Assembly (NCBI RefSeq): GCF_037975245.1
Contig: NC_092565.1
Coordinates: 21,070,999-21,134,998, forward strand
From: Apostichopus japonicus
Taxonomy: Eukaryota; Echinodermata; Holothuroidea; Aspidochirotida; Stichopodidae
Reading direction: 5' to 3'
Length of the DNA: 64,000 nt
A program made the position numbers and the translations under genes. Shown in pieces: positions 11,300-64,000 of the stretch. Each line of letters starts with the position of its first letter. Within the stretch, counting starts at the first letter, position 1. The notes beneath the pieces were generated by a model, which saw only the letters and a program-made list of their open reading frames with translations, made no database searches and was not told the origin of the DNA.

Positions 11300-11707
11300 T
11301 CACAGTCGCGCTTGGTGGAATGCCAACTCGCCTTCCAAACATCCGGTCACTAAAGTCGGATGAGTTGGAGAGAATTCTGACGTGACCACTGTCCTCTTAT
11401 GACTTATCAAACGACACTTCTCTGTGAGTCCTTTAGAGTTTCCTCCGGTAGGGTTCAGATCGCAGAGTTCGCTACAGTCCGTGTTAAAAGTGAGCAACCT
11501 GACGCCGTCACCGAACGCGGAACAGATGTACCTCCCGTCCGGGCTGACGCTGAGTTCCTTGATGTATCCTCGGCCGTCGTTCCGTTCCGACATGTAATAC
11601 AAAAGTCTATCTTGCGGATGAAACGGGGTACTGTTGTCTGCGGCGGAGTCATGAATATCTTTATCCAGGTTACAATGGCCTCCTTGAATATCGTGTACGC
11701 AGGTCCA
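11300..11707 (-). CDS. DCAF10: DCAF10 terminal exon
   Basis: Acceptor CTTTCTCTAATAG. It opens WTCVHDIQGGHCNLD (compare TCVYEFQEG in human) and continues through YYMSERNDGRGYIKELSVSP. It ends in GCLEGELAFHQARL and a stop at 11302-11300. Confidence 0.92.
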   Translation of the reverse strand, partial: WTCVHDIQGGHCNLDKDIHDSAADNSTPFHPQDRLLYYMSERNDGRGYIKELSVSPDGRYICSAFGDGVRLLTFNTDCSELCDLNPTGGNSKGLTEKCRLISHKRTVVTSEFSPTHPTLVTGCLEGELAFHQARL

Positions 11708-17700: not shown

Positions 17701-20700
17701 ATCTTCATGGCATTACCTTCACATGCTGCCACAAGTATTTTGCTACATGAGAAAACATGAAAAAAAAAGACAAGAAAACTTGGTGATTACTGTACTTCTT
17801 CCACAAAAAGACCTTAATTTCCTTACACAACTAGAAAGCCAAAAGTCTAAGTGATTCCTTGCCCATAGGAAATTGTTTTTGTAAGTACTGTGGTTTCAAA
17901 TTGACACGTTTTCATTGTGAAGTTGTTATTTTTACACTAGATATAGAATGTTTAACATCCATGGGCATCGACTGAGATTTTTGTGAACCATGAAACACAG
18001 TATGAGTCGTCAAAGTTTGACCTCTGAGATATCACGTTGACAAGGCTCTCACAGTTTGACCTCACCACAGGTCTTTATTAATAATTTAATAATAATGGAA
18101 ATTCAAACAGATTGATGTCATGTTAACATGGATATAAATCAGCTGCTGGCATTCAATTATGGGCATAACATGTAATGCCAGATATAAGATCCAGACATGT
18201 TTTCCTGCTTGATATATCGTGTTTACAAGGTTTTCACCATTTGACCTCGGGTGACCCCAAATGACCTTTAACCTCTTCCAGTAGAGTTCTTGTACTCAAT
18301 ATGGGGCACCCATACACCAAGTATGAGATTACATTAATTACTGTTTCGTTCTGGAGATATTGTGTTTACAAGGTTTTCAGTTTGACCTCTGGTGACCCCA
18401 AATGACCTTTGACCTCTTCCAAAACGATAAATTCCTTGTACTCAATATGGGGCACCCACATACCAAGTATGAAATTACATTATTGTTTCCCTTTTTGAGA
18501 TATCTTGTTTACAAGCTTTTCAGTTTGATCTCTACCAAAAACAATGAGGTTGTTTTACTCAGTATGCAGCATCCACATGCAAAGTATGAGCTCCCCCAAG
18601 GTTACCCTTCTTGAGATATCGTGTTCACAAGCAGCATCACATACATTCGCACACTCACATACACACCATCACCATCACATAGATTCCTTTTGCCTTTGGC
18701 AAGGAATAAAAAAAATAGCCTATGTTTAGTCCACTGATTCACTAGTTAAGACACATAAGGTTATATGATTACTAAATTCAAGTGGAGTGTTCTTTTTTCT
18801 CCTAAAATATGAAAGATGGATGGGAGGGGAAAAGGGAGAGGAATTGGGGGAGGGGAAGTAGAAGGGAGAGCAGACAGAGGAAAGCCTACTTACCCGGTTG
18901 GTGAAAATTCTAGATTAAAAACTGCACCAAAGCCCACAAAAGAAGAAGAAGCTTTTGTCATATGAAGATATAACTGGCTTTGTAAGTTATTGATCAGCCT
19001 TCTTCTATGATAGATTTTCTGTGTCCTGGAATAACATCCATGATAAAGGGGAACCTTGGATGATCCTATCTGCTGCCCTCTACTCCAATCAAAGAAACCT
19101 TCGCAATGAGTTTTGCTGAGTTTATTGTGAGAAGGAACGGTTACAGAATCATCTGTACCGTCCGCTTTGATCATCATGCATTGCTGTATTAAAAAGGGGA
19201 GGAAAAAAGATTTTAATCAATCTTATCACTATGACATGAAAACAATACAATTGTTTTGAGACAATGAAAACAAAACAACCATCTAGACTTTGTAATCCTG
19301 ATAGTAAAAAGTATTAAAGTTGGATTGATAAGCTTGAAAAACTTGAAAGAGATGCCACCATTTTGCATACAGACACTCTCAATCAAACAAAATATTGCCA
19401 AGTAGTCAATCCTCTCCCTTCACATAACCCACCCCCATCCCCTCTCCAATTGGCTGCCCTGGCTTCAGGATAGCCTAGATATACTGCCAAGATATAAGTT
19501 AACATCTAAGCATTTAAGGCTGTGAATAGGACCCATGGTTGAAGTAGTACTATAAGTCTTGTATTAGCCTGATGATGTTGTGTTTGACATTAGCAATGAC
19601 CTGAACGAGGTCTTATGGTACATAAATATTTCAGTTAGGCTACAAATACAATACAGTTTTATTAATTTGAAAATAAGTTTACATTACATTGTACCAGATA
19701 CACTTTCATCCGTCTTTTAAATGGCAATAACTTATGCTGTTTACTGTAAGTGGATCAAGTGCCATTCTGCCATAGGTTACCATTCTGCCATAGATTTTGA
19801 TCCTTTCCGCCATGGTGGAAAGGCTTGAAACCTATGGCAGAAAGGTACATTTTAGGAATGGATTTCACACAGGAATGTATCGGTGAAATTTTTATTGATT
19901 CTCGTGGAAGGATAGGAACACTGTCTTCAAATATATAATATGGTTGGTTAAATAAATCAAATTAATTTAGGTTGATTGCATATTAAAAACACCGATTCTG
20001 TTGATTTTACTGGACAATTTTGCGGATTTTGAGGGCCTAGGTAGTGTGAAGCGCAGCAATATACAGTGCATATAGGCCTACAGTGCACCCACAATAATGT
20101 GCTCTTTCCACCATACAAAGTGCTTTACCGCCATCGGAGTAACATGGCAGAATGGCACTTTTACTATTGCGGGAAGAGCACATTTTCTATGGCGGAATTT
20201 ATTGATGGCAGAATGACACGGCCCCGTTTTAGTAGGTAGGCTAGTCTATGCCTTGTTCCAAATTAGGCCTAATGGCTTAATGCTATTATCTATGAGTTTT
20301 GATTAGTTCAAAAGCCTGAAAACCACATGCTGCAGTGCATAACAAACTGCTATATAGTCTAGACCTTTCCATTTGTATTTAAAACAATTTGTCCATCTTG
20401 GCTTCTTGATTTTGCTATGGGGGCATTATCAGATAAAGTATAGGCCTGGGCCTACCTGTGAAATAATATTAAGATTTTGCGTTACTCTAACTTGTTAGCA
20501 GACTCATGTTTTTCATGATCAAATTGTGTTAGTGTAAATGTGATGTGTGCTCAGCATTACCTTATTATTGAATATTGGCAAATTTGGACATGCAATGAAA
20601 CTAGTTATAACTGAGCCTGGCAAGGCCTAAAATTAATTATGGTTATGTAGGTTTTATCTCTAACTTAACGTCTCTTACTAGGTATCACTCTCGCTTAGGC

Positions 20701-24300: not shown

Positions 24301-27300
24301 GCAAATTGAAATATTTTTTCATTGCTTAAATTCACCTATCTTGTTTTTGTTTTTGTTTAGCTTGCTCTCAAACACAGGCAGGGTAAAAACCATCGGATGA
24401 GAATCGTAGCCTTTGTTGGAAGTCCAATTGAAAATGAAGAAAAAGAGGTAAGATGAAAGCAATATTTCATGGTGGCAAGAATCAATATTGGCATAATGAT
24501 ATTGTTTTGTTTGTTTGTCATATGTGGTTCTCCCTGTGTTCCTAGTTATGTCAAGGGTTTAGATTTATTCAAATTGTCTTCTGTGTGAGGAGACAATTCT
24601 ACTTTGTATTCACCTGTATCCCACGCCTCATCACTAGACAGATGTAGTGTGGGATGAAGAAGGGAGAGAGAGCTCAGCTCTTGTGACTCCCCTACATTGC
24701 AGATGTCTGTCCAAAAGTCCCTTGAACTGATTTATACTGGTAGCATCAATGGCAGACTGTGTGATTCCATTCAGAAACTACCCTGACCGGGAAAAAATGT
24801 CTGCGTACATTCAATTTTGAATATTTTGCACACAATTTCATTGAATGGCCTCTAGTAAAAGAGATGTCGCTAAATTCAAACCATAATTGAGGGCTAGCTT
24901 TTACGTAACCTTTCATAATTTTAAAAGCTTTAATTAAATCTCCTCTTAGTCTTCTGGTGGATAATGTGGTGAGATTTAGAGCAGAAAGTCTTTCATTGTA
25001 TGGCAAATGCCGCAAAACAGGTATCATCCTTGTAAATCTTCTCTGTACTTTTTTGAAGATAATCAATATCACCTTTTAAATATGGGTTCCAAGCTTGAAT
25101 GGCAAATTCCAAGTGTGGACGAACAAGAGATTTATAAAGTTTCAACATTAATTCATGTTCCTTTGTTTCAAAAGTTCTGTAAATCATTCCCAAAATCCTG
25201 TTGGCTCTTTTCACACAGGCAACAACTTGTGTATTTAATTTGAGAGAGCTTGGAACAATAACACCACGATCCTTTTCTTCATTCACTGTCTCTAATGGCT
25301 GACCATTCATAAAGAAGTTGAAATGATGATTATTATGACCAAAGTGCAGAATCTTACACTTGCTAACATTAAATAACATTTGCCATTACTCAGACCAGAG
25401 ATGCAGCATCTTGATATCCTCTTGCAAAGATAATGCATCGTTTCCATCTTCAATCCTGGTAAAAAGTTTTGTGTCATCTGCAAATTTTAAAACATGGCTA
25501 GAGATGTCATCATCAATATCATTGATATATACTTTATGGGGGGGGGGGGCTATTGTGACCATTTTTAGTGGGCTATTTTATGAGTAAAATGTAATGTTAC
25601 ATGGAACAATAATCTCAGAAATTTATGATTTTGTGTCATTTGAGATCAAATGTGTATGCAGTGAAGTGAAGAAAACTGTTCTTCACAAACATCAGTTATT
25701 TCAAAGAAAGTTACTGTTAAGTGCACTTAATTTTGAGGTGGTGCTCCCCTAGATGCATAAATCAACTACTAATTTCAATGATCTCTAATCTGCAGCTTGT
25801 AAAATTGGCTAAGAAATTGAAGAAAGAAAAGGTGAATGTGGATATCATCAACTTTGGACAAGATGTAAGTACAACAAAATTACCTTTCAATTAAGAAAGT
25901 TCATCTGAAAGGATTATGTTTGATTTAAAAACCAAAATTGTGTAGAGGGAATAGACATATATATATATATTAATCAGGATAAAAACTATACTTTATGGGG
26001 GCTATTGTGACTATTTTTAGTGGGCTATTCTGGAGACAGAGAGGGGCTTTTTTATGAGTTATATGTTTAACACCTTTTATACGAAAAATCAATCATAACA
26101 TGCGTGACAAGCTGAGAGTAAGGCTAAATATGATTAATTGTATGTACATATAGCCCTAACATAATATACTGGAGACCATCATGCAAAAAGATTAAAAATA
26201 ATTTCGAGGAACGGGTGTATCCAAAACATCAACATTTTCGGGACTCAAAATGTTGTATTCAAACAGAAATATTCCGGAGGTAATAACTGATTTGTCTGGT
26301 ACTGTAACTGAAGTTAGTAATGACGTATCTTAGTGACATAATTCCGGGAGCTATTGTTTTCACAATGTTTTTCAGAGGGCTGTTTGGACAAAACAGCGGG
26401 GTGAATCACCCAGTGTATTTTTGTATTTCAGTGTATTTCAGTGTATTTCAGTGTATTTTTAACGCTAATATGAATAATGTGATGTTTGGAGGCAACAGTT
26501 GAGTTGTTATTGTTTGCCATTTTGCCCAAACATCCCTAAGTGGGGCTTGAAGGTCATCATTACTGCCTCCAATTTTAGTGTGCAAATAGCGCTAACAGTT
26601 TTCAAAAGATCTCTGTATGAGTTTTTGAACCCTGTAAATCATTCACAGAAATTGAGGAGTCTAATAAATAAAGTGACAACAAGATGCTTTGTACAAGGAT
26701 GTTTTTGAGGTTGGCAGTTAAAGCAGCATTTTGCGTTTGGTCGCCGTTTTCTACTCTTTTGACATGTCCATCAATTTTTTACATATATCAATCACAAAAC
26801 AGCCAACTAAGATATTAGCCAAGTTTTTTCCCTGCCAACAACGTTAATTGGCGAGGAATTAAAGATATTTGCAGATAACGAGAAGAGTGTCCACGACAAA
26901 TTCCACATTTAAAACTAAACGCATACAGTTCCCCCAAACCCACTAGTTTGAATTCAACCAATCAGAGATGCAGGTTTAGTATGAGCCGTTGCTAAAAATA
27001 GATTCAAGACTTTGCGTTGGTACAACCAGGGAGTTGCAATGGAACTCCCTTGTACAACTGCCATATAGACTGTACACTAATAAGGCATGGTGTTGTATTA
27101 CGTATTGGTCAATGACGTTCGTAGTGTTTAAATATTCATATTATTTTATGCCACCATTTGAAGTAAGATTTAAATAGATAAGCTAGTTATGTATGTCGTT
27201 ATGGCATAGTGGAGTCAGTGAGGTTGAGAAAAATCATAGAAAAGGACGCAAAATGCTGCTTCAAGTTTTGTTGGAATTTGAATATATAAAAGTGACCATT

Positions 27301-30300
27301 ATTTGAATTTCTAGCATATGTGAGGCCAGTAAAGATGACCTCTGTTTCATGACTTTTGGGTGTTTTGAGTAGGTGAAGCTTGACAAGAATTGCATACGAG
27401 TAATGTTATGGTTTTCACACTTCACAGCATGTAAGGTTCTTATAGTGTAAGAATAAATGTGTCATTTTCAAAATGCTCACAATTTTTGTGTAAGATGAGT
27501 GAGAGCAGACCAAGCATTCTTTCTTCGTGTGTCGTCATTTACTGCAGTTTTTAGGGCTCCCTTTGCTGTCTCTTACGATCTTCTTAAATGATACCGAGCA
27601 TGGTCGGTATCTTTCTTTAAATACATTTCCTTCGCCAGCTTGTCTTTTCCTGTTTTCTGCACTCCATTTTTTCTCAGTTTCCGATGGTCAAAATCAACTT
27701 TTTGTTTTCCTGCTCAGATTCGTATTCATAAGTTATCATAACTTTGTTCTTTTGTATTAAAGAGTGACAATACAGAAAAGCTTACAACTTTCATCAACAC
27801 AATCAATGGTAGTGAAGGTACTGGGTAAGTGTTGCTCACAGTACGTTAATACGTTTCATGTAATTGAGTAGTGGAGTGGACACATCTACCTTTGGTTAGC
27901 ATTTTCAGCATGCCTGGCGATATGCATCAAGTTTCTCTGGCTTGTATTGTCAATGGAGAACCTGTCATCATAAATTATTTGATAGAGATGTTTAAGATGA
28001 ACTTTTCCTAGACAACAAAGAACATTCTTAACAAAGTAAAATTATTGGTTCAGTTTCCGGTGTCTTCCCAGAAAATATCACGTTCGATCAATAGGGCTTG
28101 AGTTTACAAAATGATATTTATTAATCCAAGTCTCCTCTCAATGCCAGAGATTGTGCACCATTTGTAGTTGTCACTTTGTCAGTGTAGGAAATTTCAAGAC
28201 ACAGGCAGCTATTGTACTATGAAATCAAACCAAATATCCTTTTTTTGATTAAATATGTTGCATGAATAATATCAAGAGTTTTATGGAATCACTTTTTTGT
28301 CATCTGTGACAGTTCCCATCTAGTGACCATCCCACCAGGCACACTGCTGTCAGATGCTCTCATGCATTCACCAGTCATAGTAGGAGAGGATGGGTCCGGT
28401 GCTGTACCTGGCCTACCTGGGACCGGCGGAGGGGAATTTGAATTTGGCTTTGACCCTGCTTCGGACCCAGAATTAGCAATGGTAAGTAGAAATATTGGTT
28501 TGACTGTGTTTACATATGTACAAAGGAAAATGCTCACAACTCACGGAAACAGTTTTTGGTTCCATTTATAGCTTTGAGTTTGATAACTCATTTCTTACTC
28601 ATGCGTTTGTTTTTCAAATGAATCACAAATAACCAAACCTGCTATTTTCAAATGTTGTGTAAAAGTAAGTTGGCCTGACGTTTCGATCCTAGCAGGATCT
28701 TCTTCAAAGGCTGAATGACAAGTAACAGTAACATAAGGGACAAAAACACGCACAGAATACAGACAGGTTAATGAGCATGGTGAACACTAAGAGATAGATG
28801 TAAGGGGATTAGTAGACAAGGGATGGAGAGAAGAAAGAAAGAAACCAACAATGTTGTGAGTACTATTTGTCTGTATTTTGAGGGTTTTGTCCCATTACTA
28901 TCAGCATCACCCTAGTGATAGAAGAGGTGTTGTACAAGGTTCAGCGTTTACAACATAGTTGTCCAACTCTTGTCTAACATGGTTGCCCCTTACTATGTGT
29001 TTTTTTGGTAGGCTCTTCGTATTTCCATGGAGGAGCAACGCCAGCGTCAAGAGGACGAAACCAAACAGGTGATCGAGGATACCGCTGGTGAAACCACTCC
29101 CAAACCAACCACAGACACAGACACCACAACAACACTAGCAGCAACCACTGCTGTTCCTCCTTCCGGTAAGAAGTGGCTCACGTAATGGGTATATAACTTG
29201 GGTCATTCTAGCCAACTTAAAGCAACGTCTAGGGATATCTGAATAGCCCTCATATCTAACAATCCTGGTGCCTTGACATGTGTTCTGAGTCCGTTGTCTA
29301 TTTTTTCCTTTCGGGTAGCCCTCGTAGAAGATCCGTAGCATCAGACCTTCAAAACTTAAACACATTTACGAAAAGGAAATCTTTGAGCCGTTATTATGCT
29401 TTGTTGGATGTAAGCACCCATGACCATTGCAACTCGTGAATACCTTTGTCTTTTGCCTCTTTCAGATTCTGAGGAGGCCCTGTTGGAGCAAGCTCTGGCC
29501 ATGAGTATGAACCCAGCTGCTGAGACTACCAGCAGCATGGAGGAAGCCCCAATCCCCGACTTCAGTAACATGACTGAAGAGCAACAGATCGCATACGCCA
29601 TGCAGATGTCGCTGGCACCAGACGGTGAGGATTCTCTATCATGAATTCAGTTATCAGTTTGATGCTTGTAATTAATTCACTATTTGTTTTGTCAGAGATA
29701 TTAAAGGGCTTCAAAGATTTAGGTTACAATCTTGTGTATCTAGAATCAGACCCAAAGTGTCTTGTTAATTAAAAGTGGTTATCCGGCTTGTGATAAAATG
29801 AAGGAATTTTTTAGGAACCGAAGACTTTCTCGGTATTCTCACGGGTAGCAGGTGATTTTGATAAAACTGGCACATGCCTCTATTGTGGGAATAGTCTTGG
29901 AGAAAAAAATGTACTCTAAACAAACTACTACTGCCAAAATAACACTTCTCTGTTTCCAAAGACAGTTAAATAGTAAACGCTCTTTTACAATAAATTCATC
30001 GTTTCTGACTCCCAACCTATCTGTACAGGTTAGACAACCTAATGAGAAAGCTTTGTTAGTCTGTAGGAATGGATCAGTGTATGTCAATTTCCTCCCAAAA
30101 CTGAAATAAGAATGAATTCTTTCATGTTTTGCATTGACTATTAAGGTGGCTGCTACAGTTTACTACAGAACCTAGTGTGCTCTAGTTTAGTTGGTTCCCC
30201 CTCGGGGAGGGTAGTGCTAGTTAAAATATTTGCAGATTTGGAGAGTAGATACCATTTTCTAGAATCATGTTTCATTCTATAAGCTAACTTTCTTCCTCTG

Positions 30301-31608
30301 GTTCATATTTTTCCTCTGACTCATCAGAGGAGGCGGAAACACCAATGGAGACAGATGCGGGAGGAAGCTCAAAAACAGACGATGCAAAGGTAAATTCATG
30401 AAGCCAACAATTCTGTCCCAAAGGTGTATCAAACAAATATTATCCAGAAACAATTTAGTGTCCAATTTTTCTGTAGCAGTATTGAAGGCCCTGACTTTTA
30501 TCTCTAATAAAACATTATTTTTTGGTTTCCTGTGCACAGCTTTGCCCATGGATAACAATTTTACCAGTTTGCACACAGCCCTTTGGGGAAATGATATAGG
30601 ATAATTTATTCCCTTCGATACGCAGATAAAGGAGCAATAAACTCATTCAGATGGCAGTAGAAATTTAAAAAGAAAGTTGATAAATGAACCAGTGTGATTC
30701 ATGGTGTAATTTAACCCCATTGCAAGCTGAATGAGCTAATAATGACAATGATTAATGTAATTAATATAATATAACAGGGTTATCGTCAGTGGTACAACCT
30801 CCTCCAGTAGTGTTGTGTGTTCAACCACAATAATTTCACCCTACAATAAGAAGCTGTTAGTCAACTCATTATTCTGTTGAAAAGCTGTATTTGATATTTC
30901 TGGCAAGAACTCTGTTTAATTCTTATGAGGCCACGTCATATTGACTCATACACTCAGAAAGATAATAATTTCACATGTAATGTCCTCACATGTAATGTCC
31001 ACACATGGGTGAAGATACACCAGATCTATATGAATTAAAAGAGTTTACATTTGGGTATAACGGTATTACTGATTCCAAGTTAGTGGAGTAATTCATCCCA
31101 GAATATATGGCAGGAAAGTAAGTGTCATGCATACACCCTGGAAGTTTCTTATTACATTTACATTACATCTTTCTGGCTGGAGTTTTGGTGAACATCCTGT
31201 ATTCATATATTTCTTTGATGCTTTAGCACACTGCAAAACTTCTATACAGAATATAACATTCTCACAGCAAGAATTGATATTTTTGGCAATTTGTGTGGTT
31301 TTGTCTTCCAAGCCTCATTCAGCATATATTGTGCAATTTCTCAACCATTACAATTACGTGAAAATGAATCAATCACTTTGTTCATTTCCTAGGCTGAAGG
31401 GGGCACAGAGGACTACTCTGAGGTGATGTCCGATCCAACATTCTTAAGAAGCGTTCTAGAGAACCTACCAGGTGTGGACCCGTCCAGTGAGACGGTCCAA
31501 AATGCAATGGGTTCTCTGCTCCAACAACAGACGACGAAGGACGAAGACCAACGGAAGAAGAAAGGAGACAAGAAAGATGGAGAAGACAAGGATGGGAAAA
31601 AGAAGTGA
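21341..31608 (+). CDS. PSMD4: 26S proteasome regulatory subunit Rpn10/S5a (ubiquitin receptor)
   Basis: Eleven exons join in phase: 21341-21366, 23020-23163, 23667-23778, 24361-24447, 25796-25864, 27763-27824, 28313-28481, 29012-29165, 29466-29624, 30328-30389 and 31393-31608. The product is 419 residues (human 377). Residues 1-190 form the von Willebrand A domain that wedges into the 19S lid/base, starting [20 protein letters not shown], with [15 protein letters not shown] and [13 protein letters not shown]. Ubiquitin-interacting motifs follow at about 217-236 ([14 protein letters not shown]), 277-290 ([13 protein letters not shown]) and 312-327 ([13 protein letters not shown]). The tail is lysine-rich ([14 protein letters not shown]). 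It captures polyubiquitinated substrates for the proteasome. It is divergent from DCAF10 and convergent with the RING ligase gene. Confidence 0.97.
21757..22234. mobile_element. Inverted-repeat element built on AAGTTCGGACAC
   Basis: AAGTTCGGACAC at 21762 is mirrored by GTGTCCGAACTT at about 22195, with an internal direct copy (GCGAAGTTCGGACAC) near 21962 and another CCGAACTTCGCA beside the right edge. It lies in PSMD4 intron 1. The edges are uncertain, and no target duplication was resolved. Confidence 0.45.
22268..22535 (+). repeat. Tandem duplication, two ~130-160-bp units
   Basis: TTAGGCACACAC, then AATCTCAGAAGAACATGT, CCTTGCAGTTGGTT, CCTTACCATGAC and TTTATGAGGTAC occur in order twice (about 22270-22400 and 22428-22535). 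The second unit has a deletion in the middle. Confidence 0.85.
23020..23163 (+). CDS. PSMD4: PSMD4 exon 2
   Basis: Acceptor TTTTCTTTACCAG and donor CCAAG|GTAAGT. It encodes [17 protein letters not shown] and [13 protein letters not shown] of the vWA domain. Confidence 0.95.
23667..23778 (+). CDS. PSMD4: PSMD4 exon 3
   Basis: Acceptor TTTCATAATAG and donor CTCAT|GTAAGT. It encodes [16 protein letters not shown] through LTGIKVAH. Confidence 0.94.
24361..24447 (+). CDS. PSMD4: PSMD4 exon 4
   Basis: Acceptor TTTTTGTTTAG and donor AGAG|GTAAGA. It encodes [20 protein letters not shown], highly conserved in Rpn10, and SPIENEEKE. Confidence 0.96.
24660..25535 (-). mobile_element. Decayed CR1/L2-like LINE reverse transcriptase fragment
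   Basis: Read on the minus strand, [10 protein letters not shown] and the catalytic box FADDTKLF are followed by [58 protein letters not shown] and [14 protein letters not shown]. This is the order of thumb-side motifs in jockey/CR1-type RTs. It is broken by an in-frame TAA near 25386 and a frameshift near 25045-25065, and truncated at the 5' side near 25530. It is inactive and lies in PSMD4 intron 4, antisense to the gene. Confidence 0.85.
25796..25864 (+). CDS. PSMD4: PSMD4 exon 5
   Basis: Acceptor CTAATCTGCAG and donor AAGAT|GTAAGT. It encodes [16 protein letters not shown] and IINFGQD. Confidence 0.96.
25865..27762 (+). other. PSMD4: PSMD4 intron 5
   Basis: Contains the second copy of a short local duplication (CTTTATGGGG...CTATTGTGAC...TTTTTAGTGGGCTATT, about 25529-25590 and 25987-26062), four GTGTATTTCA-like units near 26418-26460, and the inverted-repeat element at 26721-27261. 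Confidence 0.6.
26721..27261. mobile_element. Non-autonomous DNA transposon (MITE-like), 16-bp terminal inverted repeats
   Basis: AAGCAGCATTTTGCGT at 26721-26736 is exactly reverse-complemented by ACGCAAAATGCTGCTT at 27246-27261. The interior has no coding sequence. The flanks are TTA and CAA; no clear target duplication longer than two bases was resolved. Confidence 0.7.
27763..27824 (+). CDS. PSMD4: PSMD4 exon 6
   Basis: Acceptor TTTTGTATTAAAG and donor CTGG|GTAAGT. It encodes [20 protein letters not shown]. Confidence 0.94.
28313..28481 (+). CDS. PSMD4: PSMD4 exon 7
   Basis: Acceptor CATCTGTGACAG and donor CAATG|GTAAGT. It encodes [20 protein letters not shown], a glycine-rich linker and the start of the first ubiquitin-interacting motif (DPELAM). 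Confidence 0.95.
29012..29165 (+). CDS. PSMD4: PSMD4 exon 8
   Basis: Acceptor TTTTTTTGGTAG and donor TCCG|GTAAGA. It encodes [16 protein letters not shown], completing the first ubiquitin-interacting motif, then a threonine-rich linker. Confidence 0.95.
29466..29624 (+). CDS. PSMD4: PSMD4 exon 9
   Basis: Acceptor GCCTCTTTCAG and donor GACG|GTGAGG. It carries two motifs of the A-x-x-x-S type: [13 protein letters not shown] and [13 protein letters not shown]. Confidence 0.95.
30328..30389 (+). CDS. PSMD4: PSMD4 exon 10
   Basis: Acceptor CTGACTCATCAG and donor AAAG|GTAAAT. It encodes the acidic linker [15 protein letters not shown] followed by KTDDAK; compare SAMDTSEPAK in the human protein. 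Confidence 0.9.
30390..31392 (+). other. PSMD4: PSMD4 intron 10
   Basis: I see no repeat, RNA gene or conserved coding sequence in this interval. Confidence 0.5.
31393..31608 (+). CDS. PSMD4: PSMD4 terminal exon
   Basis: Acceptor TTCATTTCCTAG. It encodes [20 protein letters not shown], then [15 protein letters not shown], the conserved C-terminal segment, and a lysine/aspartate tail with a stop at 31606-31608. Confidence 0.97.
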
Positions 31609-34128: not shown

Positions 34129-34404
34129 CTGTGATTTAGTTGCTATTAATGATAGCAACACCCAGCTCTGTGATTTAGTTGCTATTAATGATAGCAATAC
34201 CCAGCTCTGCGATTTAGTTGCTATTAATGATAGCAACACCCCGCTCTGTGATTTAGTTGCTATTAATGATAGCAATACCCAGCTATGTGATTTAGTTGCT
34301 ATTAAAGATAGCAATACCCAGCTCTGTGATTTAGTTGCTATAAATGATAGCAACACCCAGCTCTGTGATTTAGTTGCTATTAATGATGGCAATACCCAGC
34401 TCTG
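34129..34404 (-). repeat. 39-bp minisatellite, 7 copies, in the RING gene 3' UTR
   Basis: GATTTAG recurs at 34133, 34172, 34211, 34250, 34289, 34328 and 34367, exactly 39 bp apart. Each unit contains GTTGCTAT-TAATG-ATAGCAAC or a close variant, an 8-bp stem with a 5-nt loop. The array starts 11 bp past the RING gene stop codon. Because 39 is divisible by three, both strands stay open for over 100 codons, which is a by-product of the repeat. Confidence 0.95.
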
Positions 34405-34415
34405 GTATGCCACGT

Positions 34416-34651
34416 TTACTTCTCGTGGCATTTGTAAGCTCTGATGACATCACGAATAGGTGCACGACACATTGGACAATGGGAGCCGATATCTTTGAGT
34501 CGAAGGCCACACGTCAGGCACACACACATGTGGCCGCACTGGTAGAGGACCGAGTCGATACTCTTGTCCAGACAGATGATGCAGTGACCCTCTTCGGCTG
34601 GGTGGACGTCTCTGTTAGGAGGAGCAGCTACGGCATTCTCCAAGTTACCAC
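34416..34651 (-). CDS. RING ligase exon 7 (RING finger)
   Basis: Acceptor CCTCTTATTCCAG. It encodes CIICLDKSIDSVLYQCGHMC, then VCLTCGLRLKDIGSHCPMC and RAPIRDVIRAYKCHEK, with TAA at 34418-34416. The C-GH-MCVC-LTC pattern also occurs in Neuralized-type RINGs. Confidence 0.93.
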
Positions 34652-37600
34652 CTGGAATAAGAGGAACGTATGTAATTAACAAATGCCGTTTAAATTAATA
34701 ACACGAAGTAACCCTACTGCACGGATGTGCCCAGGACTTCCTGAGTGCCGGGTATATTGATCCCCGTCCTGGTGGAGGGGTTTAAGGGGAGGGGGTGTCC
34801 CCTTTGAGAAATTTTTCGAAGATGCCAAATGCTGGCACTTGTGTAGCTTTTTAAGCACATACACAAGTACTAGTTTTGTGAACAATTTACATTTTTAAAT
34901 TTATCTTTAGTGAAATATATATTACATACCTGGTAAAAGTTCTTAGTTTGTTTCAAAGAGATTTTACAAGGGACCAATTGAGAGCCGTAGGTAATGTTTC
35001 TCGCATGCGTAACTGATGCATTATTAGTCTGTATGATTTTGGCATAGGCTAGGCCCAATTTATGTTGAATATATTGTTAGGAATGTCGGGATTTTAGACT
35101 AAATAGTGCTGGGCGGGATTCACGATTTTTAAGACAGTGCTGGGCGGTAATTTTTAGTGCTGGGCAGGGCCGCCCAGTGTGGGCACATCCCTGCTACTGG
35201 TAAATATTTAATCCAAAATACTCTTAAATTTATGCCTAACGGTGATAATGAGGTGTCACTGGATGTATTGACATGAATATGTAGTGTGTATTGTAAATTT
35301 AAATGTAAAATTTATATGTAAATTTTGTAATGCCCAGCCTATTGATTAAAAGTACCCAATTGTAGGCACCCTCACTAGCAAATATTCATAGAGATGGCTC
35401 TTGTTTGTGTAGGATATATGTGAAGGAAGTGTTTGGTTCTGTTTCAATGTTCCATCTGAGTACACTTAAATTTATGATGCCGAACTGTATATATTCACAT
35501 GAATATTTAGTGCATGCAATCCTGACAAATTTCTACACCCAATCAGACTAGTGGAACTATATGGTGACATCAACACCCTTAGATATGCTACAAATTTTAA
35601 AACCATAAAGCAAACTTTGAAGTTACACTTTTGTAGTAATTGCTTCAGGTTACTTTTTCAGTGTCCATAATCTTCCGATAGTCACGGAATTCACAAGTTA
35701 CCGTGGTGGCATAAACTGAGCAAGAGAGTCTTCACATAATTTAAGAAAACAATGCTTCCTTTATAACTCCCTTAAGGCTTTAAATCCTCTTTAGAAGTAG
35801 TTTTGAAGCGACCCAAGAACTTCAGAACACACACTAACCTTTCCTCTACGCTTACATACATGTACGAAAAGTCACAAACACAGATATACAATACTACAAA
35901 CATTGGCTTCTCCTGGACACATCTTACCTGGAGAGTTGTGGAGCGCTGCTGCTACTTCTTGTCGAATAGATCTCTGTAGATCTAGCTGCAAATCAAAGCT
36001 AACTTTGACCATATTCTGAAGCTCCACCATCTGGTTTCGCAGGGTAGTCATCTCATGGGTCTGAAAATTTAAACAACCAGTCATTATGAAATTGAGGCTG
36101 GCAAACCATATCTAAACAATTATACGATTTCTAGCAACAGTCAAATTGATTATTCATTTCCAAAGTACCGGTATTTTATGGTACATAGCATGATCACTTA
36201 TTTATCGTTACGATTACGACTGCGATGTGTAGTTTGGTTGAAGGTAGTAATATTGATTTATGAAGAAAGCTGAAAATCAACCATGTTTTAATATTCATGA
36301 GCCTTGGCATCCTGCACAATGATGGATGCAATTATTCAAATTATTATTATTATTATCATACTATAATACTATATTATACTAAACAATAAAGTAAACAATT
36401 TAAATGTCCTGTCTGCAATATTGCAAATCACTGAAACTCATAGTGACCTATAAAAAGCAGGAAAATTTGTCTCAAATCTTCAAAAATAGGATCATACCAA
36501 AGTATGGCTGTTCATGTTGATCTCTTGAGTTGATCCTCCTCCAGCCGCACCAGACGGATTGATCCCCAGGTGACTGAAATCATTCCTGACGATATTATTA
36601 CGTCTTGGCAGGTTTTGGACGAATTCCATTACTTGTTGTCTGTCGCCATCTTGGCCAGCAGCATGATCCTGTAAAGGTATAAGGGAGAACAATGAATGAG
36701 AGGATTTAAAAAAAAAAATAAAAAAAAGTATTGAAGGATCTTTAAGAAAATGTTTGCATGGACCTATCATAACTGAAAAGTCAGTTACCGGTCTGTGGGA
36801 TTTGGTAAGACCGGTTACTTACAATTTGGGAAATAAATGATAGGATTTCGTTAACATTTATGACTTAAGCAACACATTCTTTGCTGTCGTGTGTTCTCTA
36901 CATTGCTAATTAAATTCCATTAAATCAAACAAAATACCAAACCTGGATGTCAACATATTTCATTTCAATTGCTCTGATATCACTGAGGGAAATTATAAAG
37001 CTTTTACAATTAACCGCAAGTTTTAAATCAGGAACCCTCTCAGAGACCCCTTGGTGCTTGGCTAAACTCAGGATTGCGGACACATGCAATTACCTTATGG
37101 CGAGTACTATGGGTAAAAGTGGTACAGATCTGTGTTTGACAGATAGTTATGGTTTCATAGGTTTATATTCTTTATTATTTTATAGAACCCAATGGAAACT
37201 TGAATGTTTCATGAGGGACAAACATACCTGTAACATGACCTCAAGTTGACCTCTAAAATTGCTCTCCAGAGTTGAAGTGACCAGTTGACTGTGGACCAAG
37301 TTGCTAATTTCTGTGATGATATTTTCTCTGTGAATTTGCTGAATATCTTCCACCGAACCATTTCCATTGTTGCTAAAATAAAACAAATGATACAGTTTTG
37401 GCTATAAATTTTCAATAAAAACAATAGAATGTGAAATGACCTAAATAGAAAAATCAAATCAACTACTGATATGGCAAGTTTGTCTTAAAAGACTCTGACC
37501 TAGTTAGTTAATTTGACAAAAGCCAAGCTTTTATTCTGTAAAGTAAAAAATGATGTCTTTTGATGGTCTGTAACACCTCTGTGAGTTTGCACTTGACTAA

Positions 37601-40600
37601 ATGACAAATCTGATACATAACAAGTGATAGGTTAAAGATGTAGGCTAACCAATCTACAAGCAATTGACCTTACATACATACATGGTGACATGATGCCTAT
37701 GTAGGTGAAATCATTTTCTAATATGCAGAGATACAATGGGTGATTGACAGAAGGTACCACTCGTAAATAGGAATGCACTGGATTTTGAAAGGACATGTTT
37801 TGGATATTACCATATTCCAACAGTTTCTTTAAGGTAAAGAGAGGGGAGGGGAGGGGGGAGGGGGGAGGTGTGCGTGTGAATATATCAGTCTACATACTCC
37901 TTGGTTTATATTTATATTTTTCAGTGGATGATGTTTCATCCTTTGAATGAGTAGATTTTGCACAAGGAATATCTTAAAACTTTGCACCTCAGAACTTAAA
38001 AATATTTCCTGCCAGATACCGAATAATTTTGAAAAGTTCCTTAAATTCAGCCACCATTCCGGCTGAATTTGAAAAATCAAGTGCATCCCTACTCGTGAAG
38101 GATTACAAATAATTAAATGCTTAAGTGCTCTATAGGACTTACATGAACATGTGGGATATATATGCAGCTATATCATGATCCATTTATTAGCTTCACCAGC
38201 AAACTCGACAGAAAAAGAGTAAATGATTTAGACGGTTTGGTAAATGCATCATAACTTTTTTGTCCTGATGACACCCAAACGATTCTCAGAGAAATCCTTT
38301 CCTGATTTAATCTTTTCTCTTGTTTGTTCGACACAAAATACAACTTGAAAGTTTATCAGTATTGCCCTAATTAATTCTAGAAATTCAAAGAATGGTCACT
38401 CGTGTTACTAACCATTTCACAAACATGGTAATGTAATCGTCTAGATAAATACTTCTCAATCTCAAGGAATAAGTCCGAGAGTTAGAACTTTCAGGCAAGC
38501 ATTTTTGCAGAGGTTTTTGACAAGTTTGGGCAGGCTGCAGTTGTGGGCCAATACTGATGATCACCTTTTAGGAGGGAAGCATAATTGTTTCACTTACTCA
38601 TTCCCAGCTCTGTTGAGAAGCCATGCCGACTGACTAGGTGCAACACCACCAGAACTAGGCCCTTGTCCACCACCTGAAACTTGAGGACTGGGTTGTTGTA
38701 CATATGGTTGCCTAGGCTGTGGTGGCATGAAATAACTAGGGTGCGGCTGTAAGAAATGCCTAGACTGTGGCTGTTGCTGCAAGAAATGAATATATATTTA
38801 TTTTTCAATTTTAAGATTGTAGCACCACATCGCTAACTTTCATACATGATCACATACTGTTGTTAGAAGCTAACATAAACCTCAAATAAATCTGTTATTT
38901 TCCAAAGTAAACTGTTTAACACTTGTAAGCTTTATACAGTACTCTCATTATATTACCAGTAGCACATGGACATCTTTTAACGTACAGTCACCAGTCTATA
39001 GGCTACTGGTCAAAGAAAACTGTATAGTATACAGTAGCTTTAAGTCATCAAGTGAGTTCTAGTTAAATTTTTGTAAGCAATATAGGAAGCAGACACACGT
39101 ATAGTACTAACTTTATAGGACATACGTGGCAACCAATTGCACTGATTGTCAGCTGTGCTAGCACTTAAGGATATTCATATTCAAAACTTGGACTTGGAAC
39201 CGATGTTAACAAGCACGGAATAGACCCTACACAGGCCGTAGATTTATGAAAATGGGGAGTAAACTTCTCAATAATGTTCTGTACCTGTAGACAATTTGGT
39301 AATGTCCATCAACAATATTAGAGTTTGGGGAATATGAACGAATACTTGAACGCACTGACTACAATGAGTATAATACAAGCACTGTAGTATAGCCTGCATG
39401 TTGTTGTTGAGCCAGGTCAAATGTTTATTTTACCTTCAGACTCATCACGAAGCCATTAGGTAAAACTATCAACTCTGAGACTGGTACCCTTATTCAGATC
39501 TACATTATGATGTCATTATGCACTACAATGAACCAATGCTATAATTTGTACACATGTTAGATCAACTTAAATCAGTTGTGAAACTAAAATCTTCACTTGC
39601 AAGTATAAAGGTCATCAGTATTGCTCCCTCAATATGCTAGAAAGTCAGATAGGCTAATGGATACCCATGCTCAAATCTCAACAAGTATTCTTTACTTTAG
39701 TTCTACACACTGAGAAATTTACTTGGCTATTTTAACAACCCTCAATGGCTGGGAGTTAATAGGGAGAATGAGAACCACCAGGAAGGTACTACTGAACTGT
39801 TTAAGATAGCAACTTTAAAGTGCTAACATTTGGGGTCAAAACTTATGACCTTTAAAACTTATGGGAAAGAATCAGATAATATTCACTTTGACACTCCTTA
39901 GCTTCCATATTATGTTTGAACAACTTACCAAGTGACCAAAGTGTTGGTTAGGTCCTGCATGGTATGGTTGTGGATATGCCATAGGGATGGGCATAAACTG
40001 GTTCACTATACCAGGAGGAGCCGGAGGAGGGGGTGTGGGCATTGGATGTCCATGGTGTTGAGAGGCAGCAACATTTGATGACGACGGATGAATGTTCACA
40101 CTAGAGTGAGTTGAACTGCTTATCGTACTAGCTTCTTCGTGCAGATTTGCCGGTACGAAGCCGTCCGTGAGTGGTCTTCCACTGACCGTGTTACCCGGAA
40201 GTCCCGCATTACGGAGGCGCAGTGCTGTCTCCAACTCCCGTTCCTGGCGGACGACGTTCCCTCTTATTATGTTTTCCAGCTGGGAGCGGAAATTATGACT
40301 CTCCAGAACGCTCGTGACCGGTTGGGACTGGAAGAGTCCTCTGACCTCCAGGACAACTGATCTCTGTTCTCCACTGGTTGTCGAGTTTTCGCTCTGATCC
40401 GATGATACACTCTCCGTTTCAGATTGGTAGTCACCAGCCCTCTGGGCTTGTGTGAAGAAACGTTCCAGTCTCTTCAGATTTTTGCCATCACTCACTCTTT
40501 TGGTTCTCTCTTGAATGGATTGCAGTTCCAACATCCTTTCTCTGAAGATTCAAAGGGGAAATTAAGGTTTTAAACTTCAATCTTTCCGATATTAATCTTA

Positions 40601-42381
40601 GTACCATTGACTTATATTAGTCAACATTACATTAAATATCAATCACTTATTAATTATTTATGAGCAATCTACATGTTTGTAAACACATGTAATATCTGTT
40701 ACTCTGTTGCTGTCGGTTGAGATACTCTGCACTGTATAAGACCTTTTTTTCCATCCAATTATGCATCTAACAACTCAATGCCTGTATATCCTTCATTCTT
40801 GATTGTCTTTCTGTAATAGACCTATCAACTTAGGATTGAACTATCAATCAGTCCTGATACAGCCTAGATACTAAACTATGGCAAGTAAATCGCAAGTTTC
40901 CAGCACAAAACTTATATATTCTTCATTCTCAATGATTTAAATGTTACATGGCTAATTGGCATTGACTATACTTACTATGACCTTGAGTTGATAGGAACCA
41001 GAGTTAATCAAAAGACAAGCCTAACAATTTTTGTAAATTACTTCTGAGACATGCAGTTAATGTGAACCACTACAGTATTTATTAGCAACCTTCAAATATA
41101 CTTTTTTATAATATTTTACTACACACAAAAAATAAAAAAATAGAAACATGAGAGTTATATCAATTCGAACATATCAGAGTAATATGATTCTGTCAAACTG
41201 AAAGCAATTAATCATTAGCCTGACATGTGGAAAAGTCTGGTTTCTTGCATGCAGACGTACATGGTGTGTGATTAGCCAAATGTAAAATAGGGTTCAGAAG
41301 CAACGTAGTACACTGCTGAAATAGTTGGCTTGACAAGTAATTAACATTGGTCATATTTCAAAAGACTTTTTCTTTTATGATATTGTATAAACTTGAACAA
41401 TCATAACCTAGTTATCGCTGCACCAATGCATCGTTTATTCAACGGATGATCAGGTAATTAAGTAAAACCTCCCTCATTGTTGATCCGATGATCGGGTAAA
41501 TAAGCATCGGTACGATACTGATTGAAACGTAGATCACGTAAAGAAACAAGAGCCCCACTCTTATTACCCAATGATCGGGTGAATATACTGCTTTCAACGA
41601 GACTGAAACCTGCCAAATATTGGGTTATGATTGGACATTTGAAAGGAAATTTTTGGTGGCAGTCTATTGGGTATACTTATATCTTGTGTAGCGTATCAAG
41701 GCCAAGCTTAGAGTGAGATCTCATCGAGTCTGACCAATGTGCTGCACTGACGTCACGTCTCGACGTTAGTCAGTCCTTAGATTCAAATTTCTGGTAGGAC
41801 AGGCCAACATTTCAAACACTCTATCACAGAAACTACAATTCATCACAGGGTAAGGCTTAGGGCGATACAATGATAACCATATGATGACAGGAAGGACTGG
41901 ATCCCGTTTTTCACTAAAAAAATCCTTTAAATGCGGTAAATACGGTATATCAGTATCAGTGATAATGTATATGTGTAGCTACTGTAGTTGTAGGTACCGA
42001 AATTACCGTACCGTGGCTACTAACAGTAACACAAGTTTCATACTCAGTCATATAGGCCTACCTTCTCTGTTTAATAAGGAGACGATCCAGTGCGGACAAG
42101 TGGCTATCAGTTTCGTTATCACTTGATGAACTATCATCTGCCAAAAGGACTTTGTTTAGTAGTCCACTTCTTCCTTCCTTCCCTTCCTCGTTCCCAATTT
42201 CATGCTCCTCCTTCGAAGCGATGGCACCTTCAGTGCAATCCAAGTAGTCAGATTCCTCATCGCTGCCTTTTTGAGATCCTGCAACAAGTGAATGTGTCGC
42301 CTGTCTGTTTTCACAACCACTGGTACCTGTTGCACGACGCGAAACGTTTGAAATGGCTGTGAATGACTGATTATTTCCCAT
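34416..42381 (-). CDS. RING E3 ubiquitin ligase, plant-like architecture, N-myristoylated
   Basis: Seven exons join without a phase break: 42381-42062, 40541-39929, 38776-38598, 37372-37228, 36668-36498, 36060-35928 and 34651-34416, giving 598 residues. Met-Gly-Asn-Asn-Gln-Ser at the start fits an N-myristoylation signal. Residues 1-106 are acidic and serine-rich. A motif appears twice, at about 169-206 (VLEVRGLFQSQPVTSVLES then FRSQLENII) and 389-419 (IITEISNLVHSQLVTSTLES then NFRGQLEVML). Between them is a P/Q/H-rich linker. Residues 477-520 are a predicted coiled coil ending LQLDLQRSIRQEVAAAL. The RING (544-582) has Cys 544, 547, 559, His 561, Cys 565, 568, 579 and 582. I cannot give a symbol. 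From memory the coiled-coil plus RING end matches a plant family (LELQRSIRQEVSAAL; CGHMCTC; CPICRAPI). The function is inferred: E2-dependent ubiquitin transfer at membranes. Confidence 0.85.
35928..36060 (-). CDS. RING ligase exon 6 (coiled coil)
   Basis: Acceptor AAATTTTCAG and donor TCCAG|GTAAGA. It encodes EMTTLRNQMVELQNMVK and DLQLDLQRSIRQEVAAAL, with heptad spacing of L, M and V. Confidence 0.9.
36498..36668 (-). CDS. RING ligase exon 5
   Basis: Acceptor ACCTTTACAG and donor TTTG|GTATGA. It encodes DHAAGQDGDRQQVMEFVQNL and then RNDFSHLGINPSG. Confidence 0.85.
37228..37372 (-). CDS. RING ligase exon 4
   Basis: Acceptor TTTTATTTTAG and donor TACAG|GTATGT. It encodes the second VTSTLES...FRGQLEVMLQ motif after NNGNGSVEDIQQIHRE. 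Confidence 0.87.
37373..39928 (-). other. RING ligase introns 2 and 3
   Basis: Apart from the exon at 38598-38776, no coding sequence is seen. A G/A-rich run (GGGGAGGGGGGAGGGGGG-like) lies near 37838-37868. Confidence 0.5.
38598..38776 (-). CDS. RING ligase exon 3
   Basis: Acceptor CATTTCTTGCAG and donor ATGA|GTAAGT. It is low-complexity Q, P, S and G (PQPRQPYVQQPSPQVSG) ending AWLLNRAGNE, and phase 2 at the end fits exon 4. Confidence 0.82.
39929..40541 (-). CDS. RING ligase exon 2
   Basis: Acceptor TTTGAATCTTCAG and donor CTTG|GTAAGT. It holds a basic helix (TKRVSDGKNLKRLERFF), the first VTSVLES-type motif, and a proline-rich stretch (PMPTPPPPAPPG) followed by a Y/Q/H/P-rich end. Confidence 0.88.
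40542..42061 (-). other. RING ligase intron 1
   Basis: Contains several GATCGGGTAAATAAG/GATCGGGTGAATA-like words near 41440-41590 that also occur, diverged, near 48170-48360. This is probably a short repeat family. Nothing else was recognised. Confidence 0.5.
42062..42381 (-). CDS. RING ligase exon 1
   Basis: The ATG opens MGNNQSFTAISNVSRR; the donor is AGAG|GTAGGC, phase 2. Gly2 and Ser6 are the positions N-myristoyltransferase prefers. The exon is rich in E, D and S, with LLADDSSSSDNETDS near its end. Confidence 0.85.
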
Positions 42382-45300
42382 GTTGGAAGTTTAACTAGTG
42401 AGAATAAATGCCTCAGATGTTGTTCTCGTAAGTCTTGAGCAATTGGGTTACTTTGGAGAACTTATATCAACTCTGTGCCGAAGAACAGACGGTCTGGTAA
42501 CTGATCGATTCGGTTTGTGTTCTTGTGTGATATTTGCATTCAGAGTGACTAATATGTTTACTAACTGCAGCGCATTACATAAGACCAATCAATATCCAGG
42601 TCGGGCCCCTGCACCTGATTGGCTGAAAGTCGAGGAAGACCGGTATGTCATACCTATTTTTAGAATAAATGTCACGGGTTAATTGTTTTCCTGTTGCGCG
42701 AGGGTGTAACGATTTTCAAAGAGTGATTCATCTTACCTTTGTTTGCATCGTTCATTGAGCTTTAACGATTCTGCAAACAGCAACTTACCGTACCATCAGA
42801 AGAGAACGAGTGAATAAACTTCCTCCTGTAACTACCATGAGTCATTGTCAGAGCTTTCCGCAAACATGACTGCTAGTCAATCGACCTTTCCTCTCATATA
42901 TTTAAAAAAAATAAAGAAAATTATAAAGAAAATATAAATAGCAAGTACTTGGCAACGCGTGTATGGTTCGATTTGACTGAAGCCTATAGTTTCAAGTGAC
43001 CTAAAGATTCAAATTTTCTGACCAGGGGCAAGGGGTCATGGATTGTCTCCTATACAAATGTAATGTCTATCGGTTACGGGAAACATGGGGAGGGGGGGAA
43101 CAGTGTCTCAGGGATGGTAATTGGGCCATGACAAAGCCCCGGTCTCTCGTATACATGGCAACAACGGTTATATACGTAAACCGCGTAAATAAATTCTACA
43201 CAATTTCAATCAAAACCATTAAAAAGCAATAATTTTGGGAGTTCATGGCTGGAATCAAGAATGAAAAATTCAACACTATCAGCTCCTCGTCCCCTACATT
43301 CACCTATAATGGTGCACGGACAACACAATCAGGCTTTACAGGCGTTTACTACTATACAGGCAACAGTTTGGCAAGGAGACCAGCCAAACTTATTCTTTTA
43401 CCAGAAAGTTTCCAATTAGATTTACGATGCCAGCGTCACCAACGGAAATGAATTAGAAATGAAAATAAAAACGAAAATGATGAAAAGTAGGCAAATCAGT
43501 GATGACGTTGCAACTCTCATCCTCAAATTTGCGGAATAAGTTATCGTTAAGATGTGTCCACTCCGGAGCTGAGGCACAGTGATCGCCATACACCTACCTA
43601 CCCAGTTTTGGAGTTCAGTATATTAAATAGTCTTATAGGACAATATTAACCTCATGAATTTGACTCATTACGTTAATTATTATGTTATGTTCATTAAAAG
43701 TCATTATTTCCAACAAAGGTATAGGTATACACAACCCTCATTGTGACGATTTGGCGTGTACATATGACATTCGACCTTTGACCTTAGAGCCTGCGAATAT
43801 TATCACTAACAGCCAGCTGGCTTCAAATAGCACATGTTCGTCAAACACTGACCATATCAAAATCCCTCATCAGGTCAGCCTTTAAGAGAAGTTTGTGGCA
43901 TACTGCAAAACAAATGTTAGCAAAGTTTACCAACGACCTCCAATGACCACTTGACCTTTGACATTTTATAATAATTAATATGATCTAAGAGAATGTCGCA
44001 ACACAATTTAATCACAAATTTGGCAAACGTATACATTATTGATATAGGAGCCTAGTCGCATCATATTTCCTTGAAACGGATTTGGCCAAGTCTCACATTT
44101 GACCTCCATTTACCACGTGACCATTAGCATGTGACTGATTTCTACAACCAATTCGAAGTTATCTTTACGAAACTTTACAGACATTTTGCTCAGCGGGTAT
44201 ACATGAACGTGAATTATGAGGGCAAGTCATGGAGTCATGAACAATAATTGATTAAGCGACTCGTTTGAAATTCACAGCCTTCATTCATGAACTCCGCACA
44301 GTGGACAGTACATCATTTGTCATTTTACTCCTGAAGCTTTGACCTCAGTTAATATCGTTACTATGTATTTTGATAATACCGTGAAGAGCTGCATCTGCAA
44401 TCAATATTTTGTCCCGGCGACTGATTCACAGTACAAAAATAAAATAAAAAACCGCAGCTTTCGCTTCATTCGACCGTTGACTTCTGACCTTTCATCAGTA
44501 GCGTACGCAAAGCGATTTGGTGGACAGGGGATTCCCCACCTCCAATCGTCAGTCGGGGGGGGGGGAGGTAGGGATGGTTCAGTCTAGGGATTTTTTAATT
44601 CAGCCGGGAAATAATTGGACCACTACTGCAGTCCCCCCACCCCCACCCCACTCCCTTTTATCAACCTCACACAAAGTATATATTAGCAAAGCATTGCGTT
44701 AAAGGCTACTTATGTAGTCCTAATTTAAAATCTTAATATGTCTCAGAATACACCATTTGACGTATAAAAAAAAATTGGGTTTGATCCCCCTCCCCCACCC
44801 CGGCCGCGGCCTGACCGCCAATATAGGAGTTGGATATTCAATGACCCGGGCCCAGTACATCCGCCTCCTTTTACAAAATCATTCTTTCGCCCCTCCCCTT
44901 CCATTCATGTTCAGCCCATATGTTAATCAATCGCGCATTTTCAACCCCCACCCGTCACAACTTTGAAATCTTGTGCACGCCACTGCCTATCATTGAAGGA
45001 AGGTATAGCTCTTTATCACGGGACACCTGACCTACCTTTAGTTTCTACCAGAGCCACATGGCTCTGGTTCCATACCAAATTTACACGATATCGATGAAGT
45101 TACCATCGAAACTGTTAAATTAAGATCTTGACAAATCATGTTTTTACCTCCATGGACAAATATAGGTACATTTTATGACCCAAATATGTACAATCTTTGT
45201 AGACATACACAATTTTTACGATATTCAAAAATAAATAGAAAATGAAAAGGTTGGAGGAGCGGGGCATTGATCCCCGTACCTCTCGCATGCTAAGCGAGCG

Positions 45301-46128
45301 CTCTACCATTTGAGCTACACCCCCGTGATGATAAATTTTGTGTCGTAATAAATATATAATGCAAAGGATACAGGTTTCAGCGGCGAGCTCATATATAAGA
45401 TAGGTAAAAATTAATCTTGTGGGAATATTAGCACACTTTCATGATTGTTGCGTTCATTAATTCCAAAAATTTATGTTTGATTTCGATTAAAATAATTTAT
45501 TAAGCATCATGTGTTTAACATTTTATGTGTTTGATTTGGCATACTGAAATTGGTGGATTTATACTTTCCCATCAAATTTGGATATCACCGAAAAAGCGCG
45601 CCATTTCTCTAGCTGATTTTATGTACAGGTTATGTACGGGACGGATGCTTATTGAGTTGTTGTTGTACTATTTGTGTAGGAAAGCTAGCGTCTTTGTACC
45701 CTATAGTGTTAATCGACTTGAGCTTGTGTGTACTATCCCGCTGGCCTAAGCATTTTCGGCGCTTGGCCAGTATTAACATTGTCCTCCTCAGTTTGTTCCT
45801 AGCCTAACTTTAGGTCTGTGGAACCTGGTGGATGGAAAGATTATTTTCAATAGTCATATATAGAGGCCTGACTGAGGCCGAAATGTATTGAATGTCAGAG
45901 TGGAATAATAGATAGTTAAGGCTGCAAATTGCGCTTTGTCTAAATTACGAATGTACGATATGCTTCTCTGCCGCAGCTGACATTAATTACTAATAGTGTA
46001 ACGTGTAGGCTGAGTGATAGCATAGCCGTTAGGCTAATTCTAGTGTCAGGTTAACTCGAACGAATTTTCAGTAACCGTTTCTTCTACCAGGCTTTACCAA
46101 GGACAAACATAATCGGAAAATTGGAAAT
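42382..46128. other. Divergent intergenic region between the RING gene and SMC3
   Basis: It must hold both promoters. The tRNA-Ala gene is at 45252-45324. About 43740-44350 has scattered TGACCTTTGACC-like words. A perfect 9-bp stem with a 4-nt loop (ACCAGAGCC-ACAT-GGCTCTGGT) lies at 45047-45068. Poly-G and poly-C runs occur near 44556 and 44635. No protein family is recognised. Confidence 0.6.
45252..45324 (-). tRNA. tRNA-Ala (anticodon AGC)
   Basis: The 73-nt minus-strand cloverleaf has acceptor GGGGGTG pairing with CTCCTCC, including the G3-U70 pair that identifies alanine tRNA and one U-U mismatch at 6-67. The D arm contains TAGCTCAAATGGTAGAGC. The anticodon arm is CTCGC-TTAGCAT-GCGAG. 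The T arm is CGGGG-ATCAATG-CCCCG, where A54 is usual in eukaryotic tRNA-Ala. The discriminator is A, there is no intron, and a TTTT terminator follows within 8 nt (plus-strand AAAA at 45245-45248). Confidence 0.95.

Positions 46129-64000
<17,872 letters not shown>

Follow-up and report, generated by a model that had tools for sequence, protein, structure and literature searches.

A single-copy sea cucumber RING protein with a duplicated segment, a likely animal relative of a scarcely studied family of plant RING proteins

A minus-strand gene at 42381..34416 of a 64,000-nucleotide stretch of Apostichopus japonicus DNA (the window) raises the question of whether an animal RING ligase can have the architecture of a plant RING family, as an earlier note on this DNA had proposed, or whether its likeness to plant proteins stops at the RING itself. 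Judged from its sequence, the gene product is a likely animal relative of plant RING proteins that have received little study, and we put a probability of roughly two in three on the fuller reading, that is, a single-copy, probably dimeric RING-type E3 belonging to an old, largely unstudied eukaryotic family that includes plant proteins.

When the gene was rebuilt from its splice sites, seven exons were found to join exactly into an 1797 nt CDS (including the stop codon) encoding 598 amino acids, as the earlier note had described, with GT-AG boundaries at 6/6 introns and one frame kept throughout. An in-frame stop lies three codons upstream of the ATG, because the stop-to-stop frame of exon 1 starts TSNMGNN. 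The exons, and a repeat array next to the last of them, are as follows (window coordinates).

42062..42381, minus strand: exon 1, residues 1-106 with 2 nt over; opens with MGNNQS and is rich in acidic residues and Ser
39929..40541, minus strand: exon 2, residues 107-311; helical region and repeat copy 1 (166-214), followed by a Pro-rich linker
38598..38776, minus strand: exon 3, residues 312-370; Pro/Gln-rich linker
37228..37372, minus strand: exon 4, residues 371-419; bulk of the second repeat copy
36498..36668, minus strand: exon 5, residues 420-476; completes the second repeat copy and continues as linker
35928..36060, minus strand: exon 6, residues 477-520; helix ahead of the RING, containing LQLDLQRSIRQEVAAAL
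34416..34651, minus strand: exon 7, residues 521-598 followed by the stop; encodes the C3HC4 RING and the IRDVIRAYKCHEK tail at the C terminus
34129..34404, minus strand: array whose 39 bp unit, present in 7.1 copies, holds an inverted repeat; it lies 11 bases past the stop codon of the RING gene

In a protein search of the 672 Mb genome, each of the seven exons was matched once, on contig C5, and the RING gene is single-copy and intact. The array carries a TTGCTAT/ATAGCAA inverted repeat in each unit and, since it begins so close to the stop codon, would probably form part of the 3' UTR. The segment 34110-34420 is predicted to fold as RNA better than 100/100 shuffles (z -3.5), an excess partly expected from the array's own repetition, and the 26 bp core of the 39 bp unit, with ≤2 mismatches, occurs seven times genome-wide, each time in this array.

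At the C terminus, where the earlier note had placed it, the protein carries a complete C3HC4 RING: the Pfam model zf-C3HC4_3 (PF13920) matches residues 541-589 with E 6.5e-13 and a score of 48.7 bits (cut-off 27), and the eight zinc ligands, assigned by spacing, stand in C3HC4 order (C544, C547, C559, H561, C565, C568, C579, and C582), with C563 as an extra cysteine outside the assigned ligands. With all eight ligands in place and the RING model over its cut-off, the sequence puts it beyond doubt that this is a RING protein and makes E3 ubiquitin ligase activity very likely. In the genome as a whole, PF13920 has at least 132 matches, the window's RING among them, a lower bound obtained with 150 of 350 candidates scored. 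RING cores have their E2 contacts and a linchpin residue at set places; in the present protein, the RING would recruit E2~ubiquitin via I546 and P580, and R583 occupies the usual linchpin place. In the dimeric RINGs of BIRC3, BIRC7, and MDM2, a C-terminal aromatic residue reaches across the dimer to the donor ubiquitin on the other subunit. Y593, in the tail ..VIRAY, aligns in the PDB search with this aromatic residue of BIRC3 (..VRTF), BIRC7 (..VRTF), and MDM2 (..VLTY), which favors a dimeric RING E3; by this analogy, the protein is probably a dimer in which Y593 would contact the donor ubiquitin on the partner, a likeness to the cIAP, BIRC7, and MDM2 RINGs that is one of mechanism and not of membership.

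Ahead of the RING, the earlier note had reported a VTS-LES-FR-QLE motif, present twice here and once in plant proteins. VTSxLES begins at residues 182 and 402 and FRxQLE at residues 191 and 410, and both belong to a repeat that is longer than described, ∼49 residues (166-214 versus 386-433), with a local alignment score of 76. Because this score was reached by 0/2000 shuffles (mean 31.5, sd 5.5, maximum 63), the double motif is real; the supposed difference in copy number from plants is not supported, since the plant proteins are likely to have two VS..FR.RL-type segments as well. The helices of both copies are no more amphipathic than shuffles. As a genome query, copy 1 gave no other match at E ≤ 1, a weak negative because copy 2 was likewise not returned, and a repeat profile matched four PDB sequences at E ≤ 1 (best 0.056), which is chance level. 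Binding of a partner or of cargo is the probable function of the two copies.

Between the second copy and the RING lies a presumed helix (residues 477-518) that contains the LQRSIRQEV.AAL-type string. Its hydrophobic moment was reached by 5.9% of 5000 shuffles at 100 degrees and by 9.9% at 102.8. Taken separately, neither half exceeds shuffles in amphipathicity, and the best heptad register of the helix places I, L, M, F, or V at 7/12 a/d positions. Because amphipathicity is unremarkable by this comparison, the coiled coil claimed for this region is weakly supported, and we rejected it as a proven feature; the presumed helix may aid dimerization. Used as a genome query, the helix (exon 6) found only its own match at E ≤ 1, and in the PDB it found two sequences at E ≤ 1 (best 0.74), again at chance level; for both the repeat and the helix, the negative PDB result is weak evidence on absence from vertebrates, because the PDB is not a proteome. 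The evidence thus supports the proposed architecture of a RING ligase in which a duplicated motif and a distinctive helix precede the RING.

The remaining parts are low in complexity or poorly modeled. Residues 1-95 are polar (66% S, G, P, Q, N, E, D, K, or T), and residues 216-372 are proline-rich (28 prolines). AlphaFold models made with no relatives were poor both for exon 2 alone (residues 108-311; mean pLDDT 51.9), where at low confidence the first 111 residues are helical and the remainder unstructured, and for exon 7 alone (mean pLDDT 43.7). The start MGNNQSF fits an N-myristoylation pattern of the PROSITE PS00008 kind at G2, a weak prediction that Phe at residue 7, which is not basic, counts against. 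MGRN1/RNF157 and plant LUL ligases have an N-myristoylated start; the MGNNQS start of the present protein, going by its sequence, may be myristoylated and would then place the ligase at membranes.

With the 598-residue protein as query, three matches were found in the genome outside its own exons, all of them RING matches. The closest, at C5:6131571 (44% identity over residues 531-595), is the RING of Neuralized, because an NHR domain lies ∼1 kb before it on the same strand; the other two we take to be RFFL/RNF34-like (on C15) and MEX3-like (on C13, 25% over residues 369-592). A PDB search with the cut-off set at E ≤ 0.01 yielded 36 distinct sequences (MGRN1, 1; BIRC/XIAP, 10; MDM2, 14; MDM4, 3; TRIM21, 4; MUL1, 2; CGRRF1, 1; MEX3C, 1). 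The best is MGRN1 (residues 497-591, E 3e-8), in which the RING is aligned without gaps, the likeness beyond the RING is weak, and the remainder of MGRN1 has nothing aligned to it; all the other sequences span the RING plus a few residues at most. Matches to Neuralized or other animal RINGs over the RING alone are the pattern that the earlier note had named as speaking against its proposal, and roughly this pattern is seen in the animal's own genome and in the PDB, two collections without the plant and other animal proteomes that might have given a different result. Viral contigs, prokaryote contigs, and plasmids contained no relatives when queried with the C-terminal 127 residues or with short motifs, as expected for a eukaryotic gene; given what those collections contain, the scans are uninformative on plants or animals. 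In the CTL (YEELL) RING-H2 family, a pre-RING motif is kept with the RING across plants and animals, according to PMC5764321. That family combines a RING-H2 with YEELL, whereas the present protein has a C3HC4 RING and lacks the exact string YEELL, and membership in the CTL family was rejected.

On the plant side, RING/U-box proteins of the AT5G04460 kind would have a pre-RING helix LQRSIRQEV.AAL, FR..L segments upstream, and an end LQRSIRQEVSAAL...CPLCRAPI..VIRAY, and AT5G04460 is a putative relative of the 598-residue protein. Against a putative plant C-terminal string, 23/46 positions of the pre-RING helix and 30/52 of the RING are identical (RING score 175); the RING of the animal's own Neuralized is nearly as close as that putative plant RING (25/49 identical, score 161). 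Because the plant string was written down with both the window and the earlier note already known, it cannot count as a test and does not independently confirm the string given in that note. The match of the helix is a lead and not proof; should the putative string be accurate, the similarity outside the RING would be the informative part. There are differences as well, in that the middle of the RING reads CGLRLKD here and CANELVR in the putative plant string, and the MGNNQS start is present here and not known from the plant proteins. In the open-licence literature searched, no paper contained the string RSIRQEV, and among the papers listed there was no description of an animal member of the AT5G04460-type family. 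We consider membership in this family likely.

The main competing account is that the protein diverged within an already known animal RING family (Neuralized, MGRN1, or IAP/MDM2-type) and lost the usual domains, in which case the plant likeness would amount to RING likeness plus an erroneous plant string. The best tested matches are indeed its own Neuralized, MGRN1, and then BIRC/MDM2 over the RING, and this RING contains CGHMC and CGLRL, which it shares with Neuralized of other animals. Set against this, the Pfam search of the protein returned RING families only, near or above their cut-offs, with neither an NHR nor a BIR model at E ≤ 1, so Neuralized membership was rejected, the NHR domain (PF07177) being present in Neuralized and in separate genes of this genome, and IAP (BIRC) membership was rejected too. 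Nor do the parts ahead of the RING follow Neuralized: in the 154-residue frame around its RING, the pre-RING helix scored 17, a value reached by 455/500 shuffles, and both repeat copies were at shuffle level there. Much the same held for the RFFL-like frame (helix score 19, 238/500 shuffles) and the MEX3-like frame (27, 129/500), with the repeat copies at shuffle level in both (best of all three frames, 72/500, MEX3-like). In the six frames of the two NHR-domain loci, the best helix scores were 33 and 32, without a shuffle control, and were taken as chance, having been picked among many frames. On balance, we regard descent from a known animal RING family as unlikely.

A lineage-specific gene, in which a novel helical protein found in no other phylum acquired a RING exon, is less likely still. 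It would account for the lack of any relative of the non-RING parts in the viral, prokaryote, plasmid, and PDB collections and in the animal's own genome, but the only eukaryotic data in those collections are that genome and the PDB chains, so the absence says little, and the putative plant helix does match at about half of its positions. Finally, the model could be mis-joined or the gene a pseudogene, given that exons 1, 3, and 5 have no Pfam domain match and that the model is known from genomic sequence alone; with canonical splice sites across seven exons, one frame over 598 codons, a second repeat copy that runs in frame across exons 4-5, and an intact RING, we consider this very improbable.

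If plants and the sea cucumber do share the architecture, the favored reading of an old eukaryotic family would make this an E3 family to which, as far as our searches reached, no animal function has been assigned; should the similarity be confined to the RING, the gene adds one more uncharacterised animal RING ligase. A possible role comes from the plant literature: PMC8623246, citing Kurth 2017, describes AT5G04460 as a RING/U-box protein and myosin XI interactor, and PMC3942036 groups plant myosin XI with opisthokont myosin V in a single myosin V-like cluster. The other literature mention of AT5G04460 that was found is in a table of microRNA targets. The report on myosin XI suggests a myosin V adaptor role for the animal protein, and by analogy one may imagine an ancient family of RING ligases riding on class V/XI myosins, in which the plant member would sit on myosin XI and the animal member, via its two repeats, on the globular tail of myosin V, ubiquitinating the motor or a cargo receptor to release cargo; such a family would have been kept in echinoderms and perhaps other invertebrates and lost or unrecognised in vertebrates. 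We hold this scenario to be speculative and improbable. DIL domains, the tail domain of class V/XI-type myosins, were matched in the genome on contigs C4, C21, and C19. The MadA/MadB adaptor papers examined do not mention RING, and AT5G04460 is at most a candidate for one of those adaptors.

Several other features of the window were recorded. On the plus strand, 31393-31608 is an exon with the C terminus of PSMD4/RPN10, a proteasome ubiquitin receptor (PDB match, E 6.8e-16), and an ORF at 28266-28571 is, by eye, probably a further part of the same gene. The minus-strand ORFs of a WD40-repeat gene extend over 11300-19216, the ORF at 16179-16559 giving generic WD40 matches; we take this gene to be DCAF10-like, and if it is, three ubiquitin-pathway genes would lie within ∼31 kb, probably by chance. 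A cohesin SMC3 exon lies at 57810-58154 on the plus strand (PDB SMC3, E 1.1e-14). On the minus strand, ORFs at 24746-25385 resemble, by eye, the broken C terminus of a reverse transcriptase/retroelement, and a 200-residue open frame at 52849-53451 is, also by eye, a single long tandem repeat with a unit of ∼18-22 residues and therefore probably a minisatellite and not a gene. A tRNA-Ala (AGC) occupies 45252-45324 on the same strand. Elsewhere in the assembly, the mitochondrial COX1 of contig C35 aligns gap-free with mammalian COX1 over the 447 residues read, and 9/9 of its AAA codons stand where the mammalian protein has Asn, the code of echinoderms and flatworms; since flatworm COX1 is far more divergent, an echinoderm is the most likely source. 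Besides this intact gene, COX1 fragments lie in pieces at C29:14745-31219 and may reflect either a nuclear copy or a variant of the mitochondrial assembly.
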